NCBI RefSeq assembly: GCF_900110835.1
Contig: NZ_FOJG01000001.1
Coordinates: forward strand, 310,001-374,000
Source of the DNA: Chitinophaga arvensicola
Lineage (GTDB): Bacteria; Bacteroidota; Bacteroidia; Chitinophagales; Chitinophagaceae
DNA: 64,000 nucleotides
Direction: 5' to 3'
Positions 53,661 to 58,960 of this stretch are shown here, piece after piece. A model generated the notes under the pieces. The model saw only the letters and a program-made list of their open reading frames with translations. It was not told the origin of the DNA and made no database searches. How positions within the stretch are numbered: the stretch's first letter is position 1; each line of letters begins with the position of its first letter. A program made the translations under genes and the position numbers.

Positions 53661-55073
53661 TTAGTCTTCCGGTGGCCCTCCATCCGCCATTCTTACTACT
53701 TTAGGCAGGAACTGACCGATTACTTCTACCAGGTTTGTCTGGGCAGCCATTACCGTATCAATATTCTTGTAAGCGCCGGGCGCTTCATCCAGTCCGCCAC
53801 CTATCAGGGTTACACCGTGTTCCTCCAGCTGCTGCTTCAATGTTTGTGTAGTGATAGCAGCTTTTGCCTGTGTACGGGACATCAGTCGGCCGGCTCCATG
53901 TGAAGCCGATTGCAAACTATCCGTTTCCCCTTTTCCACGCACAATAAATCCAGGCGCGGTCATAGATCCGGGAATCACCCCTAACACACCTTTACCGGCA
54001 GGTGTAGCACCTTTCCGGTGTACAATCACTTCTTTACCCTGGTGTATTTCTTTCCACGCAAAATTATGGTGGTTCTCCACTCTCGCCAGTAATGCAGCGC
54101 CACTTGCTTCAATCAGGCGTTTGTGGATCAGGTGATGACAGGCAGACGCATAGTCACCAGCCAGGTTCATTGCCAGCCAGTACTCCTGCCCTGCTTCACT
54201 ATTCAGATCCAGATAGGCCAGGTGTTTTGCGTGATCCGGCAATACGCACAATTCCTTTGCCAGCTGGGTATAATGCCCGGCTATCTGAGCGCCGAGTCCA
54301 CGGGAACCAGAATGCGATAACAAGGCCACATAGCTTCCTGCGGGCAGCTGCCATTCATTACCGGGGTCGGTAATCGTTGCAATCCCCCATTCCACAAAAT
54401 GGTTACCGGAACCGGAAGTACCTAATTGTCCGGCGGCTTTATCAAACAGATTTTTTACAAACCTGATGTCTTTAAACTCACTTCTTTCCAGTACCGGATC
54501 TGCTTCTCTTTTCTTCCACTCCGCACCGGCGCCGAATTTGGTAAACTTCATCAGTTGTTGTGTATAGGAAGTTTCATTGATCAGCAAAGATTGTACAGGC
54601 AAATCCAGGATGCTCAAACACATACGGCAACCGATATCCACACCAACCCCGTAAGGGATCACGGCGTTATCAGCGGCTAATACGCCACCTATCGGCAATC
54701 CATATCCCTGGTGTGCATCCGGCATCAAAGCACCTGATACGGCCACGGGTAAACGAACAGCGTTATTCAACTGCCGCACTGCACCCGGATCGATATAGGA
54801 TTCACCATAAATTGCGTAAGGCACCGGCGTTTCACGCAACGCAATAACGTCCGGTACAGCAGGTTGCAACAACCCTGCAGCGATTTCACCCAATATAGCG
54901 TTATCAGCATATGCGGCAGGATCTGCCAGCACTTTGGTTAACAATTCAATTACTTCTTCTTCTGTATAATGACTATAATGCTGTTCTACAACATTCATCG
55001 CTATACGAAAAACAGGACTTTGGGGGTAACCAATTTTCAATAAGGTTTTACCATTGATTTTTAAATTTGACAT
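53661..55073 (-). CDS. rtcB: RNA-splicing ligase RtcB
   Basis: A 470-residue RtcB. It joins 2',3'-cyclic phosphate or 3'-phosphate RNA ends to 5'-OH ends using GTP and Mn2+, repairing tRNAs and rRNA cut by ribotoxins. Metal-site and catalytic motifs are all present: MPDAHQGYG, GVDIGCRM (Cys), GSGNHFVEWG, LSHSGSRGLG, and ASHGAGRLMSR, whose His is the guanylylated residue. It is the last gene of a three-gene operon with an AAA ATPase and an unknown protein. That operon is preceded by tandem attenuator-like leaders. No RtcA or archease gene is adjacent. Confidence 0.95.
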   Translation of the reverse strand: MSNLKINGKTLLKIGYPQSPVFRIAMNVVEQHYSHYTEEEVIELLTKVLADPAAYADNAILGEIAAGLLQPAVPDVIALRETPVPYAIYGESYIDPGAVRQLNNAVRLPVAVSGALMPDAHQGYGLPIGGVLAADNAVIPYGVGVDIGCRMCLSILDLPVQSLLINETSYTQQLMKFTKFGAGAEWKKREADPVLERSEFKDIRFVKNLFDKAAGQLGTSGSGNHFVEWGIATITDPGNEWQLPAGSYVALLSHSGSRGLGAQIAGHYTQLAKELCVLPDHAKHLAYLDLNSEAGQEYWLAMNLAGDYASACHHLIHKRLIEASGAALLARVENHHNFAWKEIHQGKEVIVHRKGATPAGKGVLGVIPGSMTAPGFIVRGKGETDSLQSASHGAGRLMSRTQAKAAITTQTLKQQLEEHGVTLIGGGLDEAPGAYKNIDTVMAAQTNLVEVIGQFLPKVVRMADGGPPED

Positions 55074-55086
55074 ACAGGGTTAATTT

Positions 55087-55824
55087 TTATTCATACCATT
55101 CTTCCTGCAATATCTGCAGGAGGGTATATTTTTTTATCTGATCTTTCTTTTTATCGGCCAACTCCCATCTTCTGCGGCCGGCAGATTTACTCCTGGTAAG
55201 CCACGAGATCCGGTGCTGCAACTGATTCCGGTCCAGGTAATTTTGCAACTGATCAATAGCTGAGGATACTTCCGGCAATACGATCCGTTTCCTGGTAATC
55301 ATATTGGGTCTTATCTGCAACACAAATCTCCAGGGTTCCTTTACTACAAATTCCTTTATGGGCTGTATGGAGTTCTTAACATACCGGATTCTCTCCACAA
55401 AGCAATTGATCTCTTTGTCTGTGAGTTTGAGCTTCTTCAAATGATCTGCCGATGGTTGTAACAGGTGCTGTTCCCTCAATACATATTTCTTCCTTCCATG
55501 GGATCGCTTTTTTACTTTAAAGTCTTTTCGGTGGCTGTAATCGTATGTATTGATCTTGTTGAGCAACTCCTGGAAAAAAGCGCCATGTTTGCCCCTTGCT
55601 ACATCGTCGCGTAACACAAAATAGCGCTTGTAACCTATCATCACCGGGGGATCCATCACTACATATCCTCTTTTGTACCAGGCATCCCATAGTTCGTTTC
55701 TCTCTCTATCCAGCTGCAACAATTGCTTGTCGTATTGCTTGCGTGCATCGCGCTTTCTCCGCCTGGCTGTTCTCATTCCTGAGGCGGCGATATAATTTTC
55801 AATGTCGGATATCTGATTGTCCAT
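55087..55824 (-). CDS. Uncharacterised basic protein of the RtcB operon
   Basis: 245 residues, strongly basic, with no signal or membrane helix. It starts with a charged helix (RTARRRKRDARKQYDKQLLQ). A central part contains KRYFVLRDDVARGKHGAFFQELLNKIN and a KKRSHGRKKYVLREQ segment, and it ends in KKKDQIKKYTLLQILQEEWYE. I recognise no domain. The charge and the place between an AAA ATPase and RtcB suggest RNA binding. Gaps of 13 nt to rtcB and about 120 nt to the ATPase gene fit one transcript. Confidence 0.7.
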   Translation of the reverse strand: MDNQISDIENYIAASGMRTARRRKRDARKQYDKQLLQLDRERNELWDAWYKRGYVVMDPPVMIGYKRYFVLRDDVARGKHGAFFQELLNKINTYDYSHRKDFKVKKRSHGRKKYVLREQHLLQPSADHLKKLKLTDKEINCFVERIRYVKNSIQPIKEFVVKEPWRFVLQIRPNMITRKRIVLPEVSSAIDQLQNYLDRNQLQHRISWLTRSKSAGRRRWELADKKKDQIKKYTLLQILQEEWYE

Positions 55825-55947: not shown

Positions 55948-57012
55948 TTACGCAATTTCTTCCATCACTTCTCTCCTGAATCCGATCACATGCTGCTTCG
56001 TTTCAAAAGATGGTTCATGTTGATTGGCGATTTCTGCTATCGTCATTGCTTTATTGATCACCGTATCAAAACCCATGTGTTTTGATAGTTGCTGCGCTTT
56101 GGCTACAGCCAGGCGTTTGAACTCATACTTCGCTATCAGTCTTCCTTTACGTAACAATGCACTATCAATGGCAGACAGGTCGCTGTTGAAGGAGCATACC
56201 AGTTGAATATTCAGGCAATCTGCCAGCAAACCATCCGACAAATTCAAGAGGTTGGATACAGAAGAGTTACCTGAAAACTTACGATCCATGATCACGTTTT
56301 CTGCATCTTCGATAATTACCACGCAATTGGGATTATCTATCAGCAACTCCATGAATTCCGGATTCATAATGTTATTGGCCAGATCCGGCGATACAAACAG
56401 TACACGCTTTTTGATCCGGCCGATCAGGTAACGCAGATAAGTAGTTTTGCCGGTACCCGGAAGTCCATGCAGCAACACAATACCTTTGTCTTTATCCTTC
56501 TTCAGCCTTTGCTGTATTACTTTGTCTATCTCTTTAAAATCATCTTCATAAAACATTCCGATATCCAGCTTGGTACGCTTTATTTCCAGGCTCTTCAGTT
56601 CCAGCCCTTTGCGTCCACTGGTGATCAGGTTAATTTCATGTGGTTCTCTGCGCTGCTTTTCCTTATAACGTGTAACCATGTCCGTTACCTCCGTTACAAA
56701 ATCAGGAATAGAACCATTGTGCAGGATTTCGCACCAGGATTGCCAGAATGCGACTACACAATTATTGTTCAGCACCATCAATGTCTGATTATGTTTATAC
56801 TTCTTTTTCTTGTTGTCATAATCTGTATATCGATGTGTGTGCACAATGACATCTGCGTACTTTTTAGAAAAAGCAGCGGCGGCTTTATCGCCGTCTACTT
56901 CATAAATATTATTGATATCGGGAATGGCATTAAAATTAATGGTATACACCCCCTTCGGATCAAAATGCTCACCATCTGTGATATCTATGTTGTTATGAAC
57001 GATATGCTTCAT
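55948..57012 (-). CDS. AAA-family ATPase of the RtcB operon (BCS1-like)
   Basis: 354 residues. The N-terminal ~165 residues are of unknown fold. The AAA core has Walker A GLPGTGKT at 183-190, Walker B VVIIEDAE at ~231-238, a sensor-1-like CSFN, and DSALLRKGR with the arginine finger of BCS1/FtsH-like AAA proteins. It probably remodels a protein or RNP coupled to RtcB (inference from operon). Its 5' leader carries two tandem leader-peptide/terminator units and three further hairpins. Confidence 0.88.
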   Translation of the reverse strand: MKHIVHNNIDITDGEHFDPKGVYTINFNAIPDINNIYEVDGDKAAAAFSKKYADVIVHTHRYTDYDNKKKKYKHNQTLMVLNNNCVVAFWQSWCEILHNGSIPDFVTEVTDMVTRYKEKQRREPHEINLITSGRKGLELKSLEIKRTKLDIGMFYEDDFKEIDKVIQQRLKKDKDKGIVLLHGLPGTGKTTYLRYLIGRIKKRVLFVSPDLANNIMNPEFMELLIDNPNCVVIIEDAENVIMDRKFSGNSSVSNLLNLSDGLLADCLNIQLVCSFNSDLSAIDSALLRKGRLIAKYEFKRLAVAKAQQLSKHMGFDTVINKAMTIAEIANQHEPSFETKQHVIGFRREVMEEIA

Positions 57013-57260: not shown

Positions 57261-57294
57261 AAAAAAACCCGGTCTGTTAAAAACGGACCGGGTT
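57261..57294 (-). terminator. Terminator of leader unit A2
   Basis: AACCCGGTC pairs with GACCGGGTT (57266-57274 with 57286-57294), extended by a wobble and three pairs. On the - strand it is followed by TTTTTTT. Its 5' arm (positions 57288-57281 on the - strand) can alternatively pair 8 bp with 57341-57334 inside the upstream small ORF. Confidence 0.9.
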
Positions 57295-57314: not shown

Positions 57315-57422
57315 CTACGTTAAGACATACCTCGTCCGTTTAGCATTAATTGAATTAATGCTATCACTAAACCATTTACTGTGGCGGGTTTCAACCCTTT
57401 CTGTCATTGCCGGTAAATTCAT
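57315..57422 (-). CDS. Leader peptide A2 (35 aa), attenuator upstream of the RtcB operon
   Basis: A 35-codon ORF, ATG 57422 to TAG 57315 (a second ATG at 57407 would give 30 residues). The peptide begins MNLPAMTERV and ends KRTRYVLT. It is rich in Arg, Asn, Lys and Ser and has His, Trp and Tyr. The antiterminator segment AAACGGAC (57334-57341) is read as its Lys-Arg-Thr codons, ending 16 nt before the stop. Its terminator follows after about 20 nt. The peptide probably has no function beyond being translated. Confidence 0.6.
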   Translation of the reverse strand: MNLPAMTERVETRHSKWFSDSINSINAKRTRYVLT

Positions 57423-57441: not shown

Positions 57442-57471
57442 AAAAAAGCCCGGATCCAAGGACCCGGGCTT
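57442..57471 (-). terminator. Terminator of leader unit A1
   Basis: AAGCCCGG pairs with CCGGGCTT with additional pairs after one mismatch (57446-57457 with 57461-57471). On the - strand it is followed by TTTTTT. The 5' arm GCCCGG (57464-57469) can instead pair with CCGGGC at 57517-57522 in the upstream ORF. Confidence 0.9.
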
Positions 57472-57497: not shown

Positions 57498-57587
57498 CTA
57501 CCTGTAATCATAAAACGCCCGGAACCCGCCACTGCCTTGCTCTGAGCAAGGTGCTGTGCTGTCCATATTTAGATAAATGCGTTTCAT
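57498..57587 (-). CDS. Leader peptide A1 (29 aa), first attenuator upstream of the RtcB operon
   Basis: A 29-codon ORF from ATG 57587 to TAG 57498. It begins MKRIYLNMDS and ends FRAFYDYR. It starts ~37 nt after the -7 box of a near-perfect promoter and ends 27 nt before an intrinsic terminator. The antiterminator segment CCGGGC (57517-57522) lies in its Phe-Arg-Ala codons, 16 nt before the stop. A hairpin CCTTGC/GCAAGG lies in its middle. A role as a regulatory leader peptide is inferred from this layout. Confidence 0.65.
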   Translation of the reverse strand: MKRIYLNMDSTAPCSEQGSGGFRAFYDYR

Positions 57588-57880: not shown

Positions 57881-58450
57881 TTATATTAACACCGCACTTT
57901 CTTCGTACTCCTTACGAAGCCGTTGCATCTGACGGATATGCCGTTCGATGTGTTTGGTGAGGAAATAGATGTATTGGTATATATCCAGCTTACCTAATTG
58001 ATTAACAGACATGTTGGTAAATACCAGCACTCCTTCTCCGTTTTTCAGTAAAGACAGGTTATACATACACTGTGCATACTGTTGTTTCAGGAGGGCTTTC
58101 ACTTCCTGCATATTTTTAAGTCCGGTAGGCTCCATGTGCTCGGGTCTTACCCAGCCAAAGGACTTACTGCCTATGACATCTATCTGTTCTAACTTATTGG
58201 CATAATCCGCAGGGAGTACCACAGTATGGCCAGTTTTCTTACGTTCCAGCGCACGGCGGGTACTTTTGTTAATGATCAGGAGGAGAAAATAATTGGTGAG
58301 CGTAATATGCTCCAATACTTCCCGTATACTCCATTGATCGCGGTCTGGTTTGAAGTCCAGTAATGCCGGTTCTTTTTCAAACCACTGATCCAACTCCCTG
58401 AAATTGGTGAGTAAGGCCTCTCTTACTACTTGAATAACGTTTCTCATCAT
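57881..58450 (-). CDS. DinB-fold family protein
   Basis: A 189-residue four-helix DinB/YfiT-like protein. WSIREVLEHITLTNYFLL carries the first metal-site His (~residue 48) and KHIERHIRQMQRL the C-terminal His pair. The family includes metal-dependent, often thiol-linked enzymes of mostly unknown substrate. It starts with ATG ATG (58450/58447). The gene is preceded by its own tandem leader-peptide/terminator pair (58.56-58.96 kb), homologous to that before the RtcB operon. Confidence 0.8.
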   Translation of the reverse strand: MMRNVIQVVREALLTNFRELDQWFEKEPALLDFKPDRDQWSIREVLEHITLTNYFLLLIINKSTRRALERKKTGHTVVLPADYANKLEQIDVIGSKSFGWVRPEHMEPTGLKNMQEVKALLKQQYAQCMYNLSLLKNGEGVLVFTNMSVNQLGKLDIYQYIYFLTKHIERHIRQMQRLRKEYEESAVLI

Positions 58451-58556: not shown

Positions 58557-58588
58557 ACAAAAAAACCCGGCCGTATTTACGGACCGGG
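58557..58588 (-). terminator. Terminator of leader unit B2
   Basis: CCCGG pairs with CCGGG (58566-58570 with 58584-58588) and the stem continues after one bulged A. On the - strand it is followed by TTTTTTT. Its 5' arm GTCCGTA (58578-58584) can pair instead with TACGGAC at 58631-58637. Confidence 0.88.
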
Positions 58589-58616
58589 AGAAATAATGTA
58601 GAGGGGTTATCTCACA

Positions 58617-58694
58617 TTACCGCATACCTTGTCCGTATGGCTTTTTTAAGGCAAAGCCATCCCATTTACACCGCGAGGTGTATTTTTTTTGCAT
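58617..58694 (-). CDS. Leader peptide B2 (25 aa), attenuator upstream of dinB
   Basis: A 25-codon ORF from ATG 58694 to TAA 58617, beginning MQKKYTSRCK and ending KPYGQGMR. It holds six Lys, two Tyr and two Arg codons. The antiterminator TACGGAC (58631-58637) lies in its Tyr-Gly-Gln codons, 11 nt before the stop. RNA features shared with unit A2 in the same order: GTAAATGG, a hairpin, ACGGACrAGGTATG, a hairpin, and a CCCGGTCCGT terminator arm. Confidence 0.6.
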   Translation of the reverse strand: MQKKYTSRCKWDGFALKKPYGQGMR

Positions 58695-58746
58695 TACAGT
58701 TATCGCTTGAAATTCTTTCAATGTCGTCATTTCACTACTGCTTCAA

Positions 58747-58784
58747 AAGCAAAAAGTCCCACACTTTACTTAGTGCGGGACTTT
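58747..58784 (-). terminator. Terminator of leader unit B1
   Basis: A 14-bp stem with one mismatch (58752-58765 with 58771-58784) is followed on the - strand by TTTTTG. The 5' arm segment CCCGCA (58774-58779) can pair instead with TGCGGG at 58835-58840. Confidence 0.9.
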
Positions 58785-58814
58785 TGTTTATATCGTTTGA
58801 TAACTTTACTATCG

Positions 58815-58874
58815 TTAACAATCGGTGCAACACGCCCGCATTCTGGCCTTGACCTGCTTTTGTTGGCAGGCCAT
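58815..58874 (-). CDS. Leader peptide B1 (19 aa), first attenuator upstream of dinB
   Basis: A 19-codon ORF from ATG 58874 to TAA 58815, starting MACQQKQVKA and ending ACCTDC. The antiterminator TGCGGG (58835-58840) lies inside it, 17 nt before the stop. Its ATG is embedded in a CCTGC/GCAGG hairpin, at the same place as the CCTTGC/GCAAGG hairpin of unit A1. It is the least certain of the four small ORFs, because an earlier non-ATG start in another frame cannot be excluded. Confidence 0.45.
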   Translation of the reverse strand: MACQQKQVKARMRACCTDC

Positions 58875-58927
58875 CGCTGAAATCTCGTATGTTGATATAA
58901 GTTGCACAGTTTATTTTATTCTTGAAG

Positions 58928-58960
58928 CAAAGGTAATTTTTATTTTTTTTATTACACAAA
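58928..58960 (-). promoter_or_regulatory. Promoter of the dinB attenuator leader
   Basis: TTTG (58957-58960), a 21-nt spacer and TACCTTTG (58928-58935) on the - strand. It has the same box spacing as the promoter at 57624-57656. Confidence 0.85.

Follow-up and report, generated by a model that had tools for sequence, protein, structure and literature searches.

Tandem leader ORFs and terminators ahead of a Chitinophaga DinB-family gene: probable ribosome-mediated attenuators shared with RNA-repair and backup-tRNA genes

Why should the gene for a small DinB-family protein in Chitinophaga arvensicola be preceded by two short open reading frames (ORFs) and two intrinsic terminators? We addressed this question in a window of 64,000 nucleotides, the whole stretch of DNA analysed here. 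The downstream gene is called dinB throughout; its sole Pfam match is DinB_2 (PF12867), and an identity as DNA polymerase IV is ruled out. A short leader ORF ahead of an intrinsic terminator is found twice in the dinB leader, as units B1 and B2, with the following features (evidence in brackets).

58928-58935, minus strand: -7 promoter box TACCTTTG of the dinB leader (sequence)
58815-58907, minus strand: leader ORF B1, 30 codons from GTG, reading MQLISTYEISAMACQQKQVKARMRACCTDC and stop (ORF reading, leader comparison)
58815-58874, minus strand: 19-codon ATG ORF, nested in ORF B1 (sequence)
58835-58840, minus strand: B1 antiterminator arm TGCGGG, 17 nt upstream of the stop (arm/partner search)
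58774-58779, minus strand: B1 partner CCCGCA, within the 5' arm of the terminator (arm/partner search)
58752-58785, minus strand: terminator B1, 14-bp stem and U tract (terminator search, folding)
58617-58730, minus strand: leader ORF B2, 37 codons, reading MTTLKEFQAITVMQKKYTSRCKWDGFALKKPYGQGMR and stop, enclosing a 25-codon ORF (ORF reading, leader comparison)
58631-58637, minus strand: B2 antiterminator arm TACGGAC (folding, covariation)
58594-58619, minus strand: hairpin TAATGT/ACATTA within the antiterminator, whose 5' arm bears the ORF B2 stop codon (folding, covariation)
58578-58584, minus strand: B2 partner GTCCGTA in the terminator (arm/partner search, covariation)
58566-58588, minus strand: terminator B2 (terminator search)
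57881-58450, minus strand: DinB_2 family protein, 189 aa, the downstream gene (PF12867, E 3.8e-10)

The sequence-only reading of this DNA had proposed the order promoter, 19-codon ORF, terminator, 25-codon ORF, terminator. All of these elements are present, but neither ORF start is the conserved one. By eye, dinB leaders such as L026, L027, L029 and L030 lack the ATG that opens the 19-codon ORF and retain the in-frame start 11 codons upstream, a GTG (ATG in L031). The ATG of the 25-codon ORF does exist, yet it sits in frame inside the 37-codon ORF, whose own ATG is the usual start across leaders (by eye). The TACCTTTG box at 58935-58928, which we take to be of the Bacteroidota TAnnTTTG promoter type, is present as TA(C/T)CTTTG in most of the dinB leaders printed, again by eye.

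A leader of identical plan (units A1 and A2) precedes the operon for an AAA ATPase, a 245-aa protein and RtcB, also within the window.

57498-57587, minus strand: leader ORF A1, 29 codons (ORF reading)
57522-57517, minus strand: A1 arm CCGGGC, which pairs with GCCCGG at 57469-57464 of terminator A1
57447-57470, minus strand: terminator A1 (terminator search)
57315-57422, minus strand: leader ORF A2, 35 codons, reading MNLPAMTERVETRHSKWFSDSINSINAKRTRYVLT and stop (ORF reading)
57334-57341, minus strand: A2 antiterminator arm AAACGGAC (arm/partner search, covariation)
57268-57292, minus strand: terminator A2, with the partner GTCCGTTT at 57288-57281 (terminator and partner search)
55948-57012, minus strand: AAA ATPase, behind A1-A2 (Pfam, genus comparison)
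55087-55824, minus strand: 245-aa protein without a Pfam match (Pfam search)
53661-55073, minus strand: RtcB RNA ligase (PF01139, E 5.4e-84)

We note that the minus strand at 57245-57150, 3' of A2, carries a GC-rich hairpin between a TTGAGGAGGTACA-like and a TTTTTTTCGTCTCTGTTTGC-like stretch, an arrangement common in ATPase leaders (by eye) that is perhaps an additional regulatory element or a second promoter. Homologues of the 245-aa protein (55087-55824) with 38-46% identity are found in tRNA-array islands of other genera.

Comparison of the two leaders bears out what had been noticed of A2 and B2 from the letters of this one genome. The 8.3 Mb genome has two copies of the motif GTAAATGG followed by ACGGACrAGGTATG, and 0 of a reversed control pattern. 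The base before ACGGAC is A paired with T in A2 (AAACGGAC/GTCCGTTT) and T paired with A in B2 (TACGGAC/GTCCGTA), the compensatory change that had been claimed. The proposed distance of 11-17 nt from the arm end to the stop codon likewise holds in all four units (B1 17, B2 11, A1 16, A2 16). A2 and B2 read their common 14-mer in different frames (ending RTRYVLT and stop in A2, GQGMR and stop in B2), and it is therefore conserved as RNA and not as peptide. The exact pattern matches only 5 of 79 genus genomes and is thus too strict; covariance models were used instead.

Both leaders are conserved across Chitinophaga. A dinB orthologue is present in 79/79 genus genomes; in one of them (G055:C1:587163-587727) the match is split in two, one piece having an internal TGA, perhaps through a frameshift. 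An ATPase match is found in 63/79, a few being only weak AAA-domain matches. Two terminators are seen in 70/70 dinB leaders read (70 of the 79 genomes) and in 30/30 ATPase leaders read (30 of the 63 genomes with a match). In one dinB leader (L006), ORF B2 carries two compensating frameshifts, by which the middle of the peptide is altered while both hairpins and the final frame stay intact (by eye). DinB relatives at 45 named loci comprise 42 from Chitinophaga and one each from Flexibacter sp. ATCC 35208, an uncultured Flavihumibacter and Chryseosolibacter; the closest is that of C. ginsengisegetis (98%), and the only distant one is that of Chryseosolibacter (40% identity). In the latter organism, which lies outside the family, a leader ORF ending CCCGGGATATGGTGTGA and a matching terminator precede the DinB homologue (L379:1310-1465, by eye). 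This leader is apparently a single unit (by eye) and was left out of the counts.

The four unit stretches (A1, A2, B1 and B2) fold 3.4 to 4.6 standard deviations better than shuffles, and the comparative evidence against chance is stronger. Covariation was assessed in an alignment of 44 A2 and B2 sequences picked from 64 extracted, 13 divergent B2 leaders having been excluded by name beforehand (for 7 of these the best arm partner is in another register, and for 6 it lies away from where it is expected). In the helix between arm and terminator, 94.9% of cells are paired and five of eight pairs show double changes (n = 44); in the inner hairpin (helix 2), 79.5% of cells are paired, with double changes in four of seven pairs (n = 44). 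Over the whole antiterminator there are 47 double-change cells versus 10.8 in shuffles, and slid versions of the structure pair at most 45% of cells (both n = 44). The terminator stem itself is almost invariant in the alignment. The leaders hence carry an antiterminator that is mutually exclusive with the terminator and is backed by compensatory changes.

Across the four unit types, the antiterminator has median energies of -17 to -22 kcal/mol and the terminator state of -25 to -30 kcal/mol, the latter having the greater median stability in every type. Consequently, the antiterminator must form first, and the switch depends on co-transcriptional order. The sets for energies and open frames omit units whose best arm partner lies outside 36-62 nt, keeping 28/30 A1, 24/30 A2, 59/70 B1 and 63/70 B2. 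The distance from arm end to stop is mostly 15-17 nt across units and 7-12 nt in B2, so that a ribosome at a defined position in the ORF could reach the arm. A search of the whole window with Rfam at the gathering score gave no cis-regulatory RNA family, the sole match being a tRNA.

How far does this cassette extend? A covariance model built from A2 and B2 orthologues (R1; genus threshold E up to 0.02) matches 78/79 genus genomes: exactly two matches in 48, one in 17 and three or more in 13, with none in G032. In the window's genome the R1 matches are A2 and B2, and placement in other genomes was compared by eye. The matches are thus neither confined to this genome nor without a consistent gene context, either of which would have told against the earlier proposal. 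Of 14 further genus places from R1, eight precede 1 to 8 tRNA genes accompanied by genes for YkuK (RNaseH-like), slipin or both. Two more (L192, L193), from genomes that lack an ATPase match, precede an rtcB gene directly behind dinB, and the remaining four (L184, L186, L190, L191) were rejected as chance matches to the ends of ordinary genes. On 244 family genomes, R1 gave many weak matches. Five of its matches (L122, L124, L125, L134, L137) were set aside as phe/ilv-like attenuators; they have terminators and leader peptides rich in Phe or in Ile/Val/Leu, and by eye the genes behind them resemble prephenate dehydratase, ilvE and ilvD.

A second model, R3, was built from 15 array leaders only, taken from loci other than the window's. 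Its best matches in the window are A2 (E 5.7e-9), B2 (3.4e-6) and A1 (2.7e-4), the next being at 0.037. At E up to 0.005, 144/294 family genomes have an R3 match, of which selected places were examined. Of the top 30 family loci, 28 have tRNA genes within 1.5 kb and 18 have an island gene (RtcB, YkuK, slipin, AAA or DinB), all downstream in the same direction; the island-gene count comes from blastp with six-frame pieces, and tblastn gives 17. One or the other, tRNA gene or island gene, is present in 30/30. Training sequences came from 7 of these 30 loci (G239, G163, G284, G313, G180, G226, G075), and the other 23 gave none. In 20 larger regions, which we chose outside the training set from matches down to E 4e-7 and 10 of which overlap the top 30, an island gene is present in 19 and tRNA genes in 15. 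The control of 27 loci outside the family shows a tRNA gene in three (L263, L268, L271) and an island gene in one (L263); a tmRNA lies near another control locus (L272). On 395 class genomes, R3 scores no better than E 1e-6 outside the family, with matches frequently on both strands, and we take these to be background. The only genuine match outside the family seems to be L263, with tandem ORFs, five tRNAs and RtcB.

In L231 and in L237, DinB, AAA, RtcB and ten tRNA genes form a single cluster. DinB directly follows the leader in L141, L147, L148 and L150, and AAA comes after it in L141 and L148. We find a real, conserved cassette, a cis element common to rtcB, tRNA genes and associated genes that form a coherent set. 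The sequence-only reading had supposed one cassette for at least two operons, and at least three types are now found: dinB, AAA-ATPase/rtcB, and tRNA genes with YkuK and/or slipin. Its further suggestion of a wider translation-stress regulon stands as to extent, and the cargo (RtcB ligase, spare tRNAs) fits it; the response to stress is the part that we infer. The association also places the DinB-family protein and the 245-aa protein without a Pfam match in an RNA-repair gene set.

The window's own genome provides the third type. There, R3 has a third match at C3:1086103-1086187, ahead of six tRNA genes and slipin.

C3:1085588-1086187: third tandem leader and its array (L225), with tRNAs Gln, Ile(TAT), Gln, His, Tyr and Phe, then slipin

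Five of the array tRNAs show 57-67% identity to same-anticodon tRNAs elsewhere in the genome. For Ile(TAT) there is no further copy among the 67 tRNA matches of this genome, a list that may be incomplete, since it holds no Ile(GAT) either. Judged by these identities, the array tRNAs are not recent copies of the genome's other tRNAs. The YkuK gene of the same genome (L194, C3:1787825-1788241) has no tRNA genes in its locus and no R1 or R3 match, in contrast to the situation in many relatives.

What reads the cassette, a ribosome or something else? An open frame of at least 25 codons that ends shortly after the arm is found in 28/28 A1, 24/24 A2, 51/59 B1 and 56/63 B2 units, with stop ranges set after inspection of the data; other frames are open in 23/35, 2/4, 31/59 and 36/92 of the same four sets. 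The substitution test gave no consistent contrast between the leader frame (pN/pS 0.72, 0.82, 0.65 and 0.95 in the four unit types) and other frames (0.72 to 1.18). The peptide sequence is barely conserved, and with values of 0.65-0.95 the substitution pattern does not prove leader translation. Such weak coding evidence, together with the strong RNA-level conservation of the unit 1 and unit 2 cores and the covarying hairpins, would suit a riboswitch-like RNA that binds a ligand or protein and in which the ORFs are incidental. We regard this as unlikely, since the conserved features end at or around the stop codon at a recurrent distance, the long frame ends there in the proportions just given, the two frameshifts in L006 compensate so as to retain the final frame (by eye), and there is no Rfam match at the gathering score. 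Leaders of the ErmC or TnaC type work as arrest peptides, and here too a nascent leader peptide might stall the ribosome at its C-terminus upon a specific drug or metabolite. In fact, the C-terminal residues are alike within a unit type (RACCTDC and stop in B1, FRAFYxYR and stop in A1, GxGM(x) and stop in B2). The ends are, however, unlike between paralogous units and operons (RACCTDC, RAFYDYR, RTRYVLT, GQGMR, KRPWYIHT), the common A2/B2 motif is read in two frames at the pN/pS noted above, and a stall over the ORF end would hide the arm instead of exposing it, all of which makes an arrest peptide just as improbable as an incidental ORF. We read these patterns as suggesting selection on the ribosome's stopping place, not on the peptide.

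If the ribosome's position matters, a classical attenuator specific for one amino acid should also be weighed, and cysteine is the candidate: Cys is 5.75 times commoner in leader peptides than in window proteins, part of this excess being what random codons would give, and B1 ends in RACCTDC. This reading is very doubtful, because three of the B1 Cys codons lie 3' of the arm, where a stall keeps the arm covered. In addition, the other leader pairs use 16-20 residue types with no run of codons for one amino acid before the arm (by eye), and pheA- and ilv-like attenuators of the same family differ in having Phe/Tyr or Ile/Leu/Val runs. Finally, the leader could hold two plain terminators that insulate dinB without switching, with which the greater median stability of the terminator state agrees. 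Since the antiterminator helix covaries and the same tandem plan precedes a functionally coherent gene set, we give this explanation hardly any credence.

In sum, we consider that the dinB leader probably consists of tandem ribosome-mediated transcription attenuators and is one use of an RNA-repair and backup-tRNA regulon cassette induced by stalling; the cassette itself most likely acts as a ribosome-mediated attenuator. In each unit, RNA polymerase would transcribe an ORF of 30-40 codons whose last codons carry the arm (of GCGGG or ACGGAC type). By default, an undelayed ribosome reaching the stop codon would mask the arm's end and unfold the small stop-codon hairpin; with the antiterminator blocked, the terminator would form and the gene would be off. 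Were the ribosome to stall or lag upstream of the arm, the arm could pair with the terminator's 5' half, allowing read-through. The two units in series would both have to be passed, as a double lock, which implies a lower leak and the need for a general rather than a local stall. The comparisons show the anatomy, conservation, covariation and cargo of the cassette. That the leader ORFs are translated and that stalling turns the genes on is what we infer, the sign of regulation from the geometry, the cargo and two comparable regulons (Salmonella rtc and Anabaena TrcR). The inducer is likely a loss of functional tRNAs or some other damage that stalls ribosomes, in keeping with the genes controlled (RtcB ligase, divergent tRNA genes, slipin, YkuK, AAA ATPase and DinB).

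The paired leader peptides raise a further possibility concerning what the attenuators sense. Coverage, the union of residue types in both leader peptides, was set against that of shuffles matched in nucleotide composition for 23/24 array clusters (F_L143 was out, being in the wrong frame), 7 rtcB leaders and 17/26 dinB leaders (the nine omitted have no unit-1 ORF of 27-36 codons in the expected place). All counts are inflated by relatedness of the sequences, and the following numbers overstate certainty accordingly: array leaders (n = 23) have a mean of 19.52 types versus 18.84, with all 20 in 14 versus 6.5 expected; AAA-rtcB leaders (n = 7) have 19.43 versus 18.52, with all 20 in 4 versus 1.2 expected; and dinB leaders (n = 17) have 18.29 versus 18.68, with all 20 in 0 versus 3.9 expected. 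An earlier composition-matched run (53/58 clusters, with some ORF picks wrong and A_L078/A_L079 near-duplicates) agrees. Coverage measured against window proteins was set aside as partly a composition effect. It is conceivable, and we put it forward tentatively as rather less than an even prospect, that the cassette is a universal sensor of tRNA integrity whose paired leader ORFs are kept so as to use all 20 amino acids; coverage favours this idea in the array and rtcB leaders but not in the dinB leaders. Loss of any one tRNA, for example when a competitor or phage deploys an anticodon nuclease, would then stall a ribosome before the arm and release RtcB and divergent, possibly nuclease-proof backup tRNAs. 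If true, such a switch reads the whole decoding set and not one amino acid or drug.

How does the proposed attenuator compare with known systems? Amino-acid leader attenuators of the trp, his, phe and ilv type consist of a leader ORF, an antiterminator arm and a terminator. The parts of the cassette are alike, whereas its codons are diverse with no evident regulatory run, and its cargo is RNA repair and not biosynthesis.

The published systems below are compared through parts of each source. The armZ leader peptide PA5471.1 of Pseudomonas aeruginosa, in mexXY control, responds to ribosome-targeting antibiotics by read-through, for which attenuation is proposed (PMC12057347). It shares with the cassette a leader ORF and predicted downstream terminators, and differs in phylum, in cargo (an efflux anti-repressor) and in that the consulted part of the source describes one leader peptide (PMC12057347). 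In E. coli, the topAI-yjhQ uORF detects ribosome-targeting antibiotics of several classes and is similar as a general translation-stress sensor, a likeness by description only and with different genes (PMC12121999). In Flavobacterium, leader-peptide attenuation is mentioned for amino-acid operons (PMC9723704), and sORF leaders are mentioned in Bacteroides (PMC7366714). The open PMC matches listed, mostly covered by title and start of abstract, and with subscription journals and bioRxiv outside the scope, included none on a Bacteroidota attenuator for rtcB, dinB or tRNA arrays.

Two regulons resemble the cassette in cargo. In the RtcR-controlled RNA-repair operon of Salmonella, an activator protein binds tRNA halves and turns rtc on (PMC7790460), so that RtcB cargo, and probably a signal from damaged tRNA, is common to both (PMC7790460). 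Unlike that activator protein, the cassette is proposed to be a cis RNA that reads ribosome progress. In Anabaena, TrcR represses a 26-tRNA operon, rtcB, slipin and an AAA ATPase, and translation-targeting antibiotics relieve this repression (PMC10272220). TrcR differs from the cassette in being a DNA-binding repressor, and the string 'attenuat' is absent from that paper's text (PMC10272220). What is new in the cassette is that it is tandem, has no evident regulatory codon run and is wired to RNA repair and spare tRNAs. If the proposed mechanism is true, it represents a cis-acting, protein-free coupling of ribosome stalling to the expression of an RNA ligase and spare tRNAs, and the puzzle of why inducible tRNA arrays exist becomes a directly testable model.
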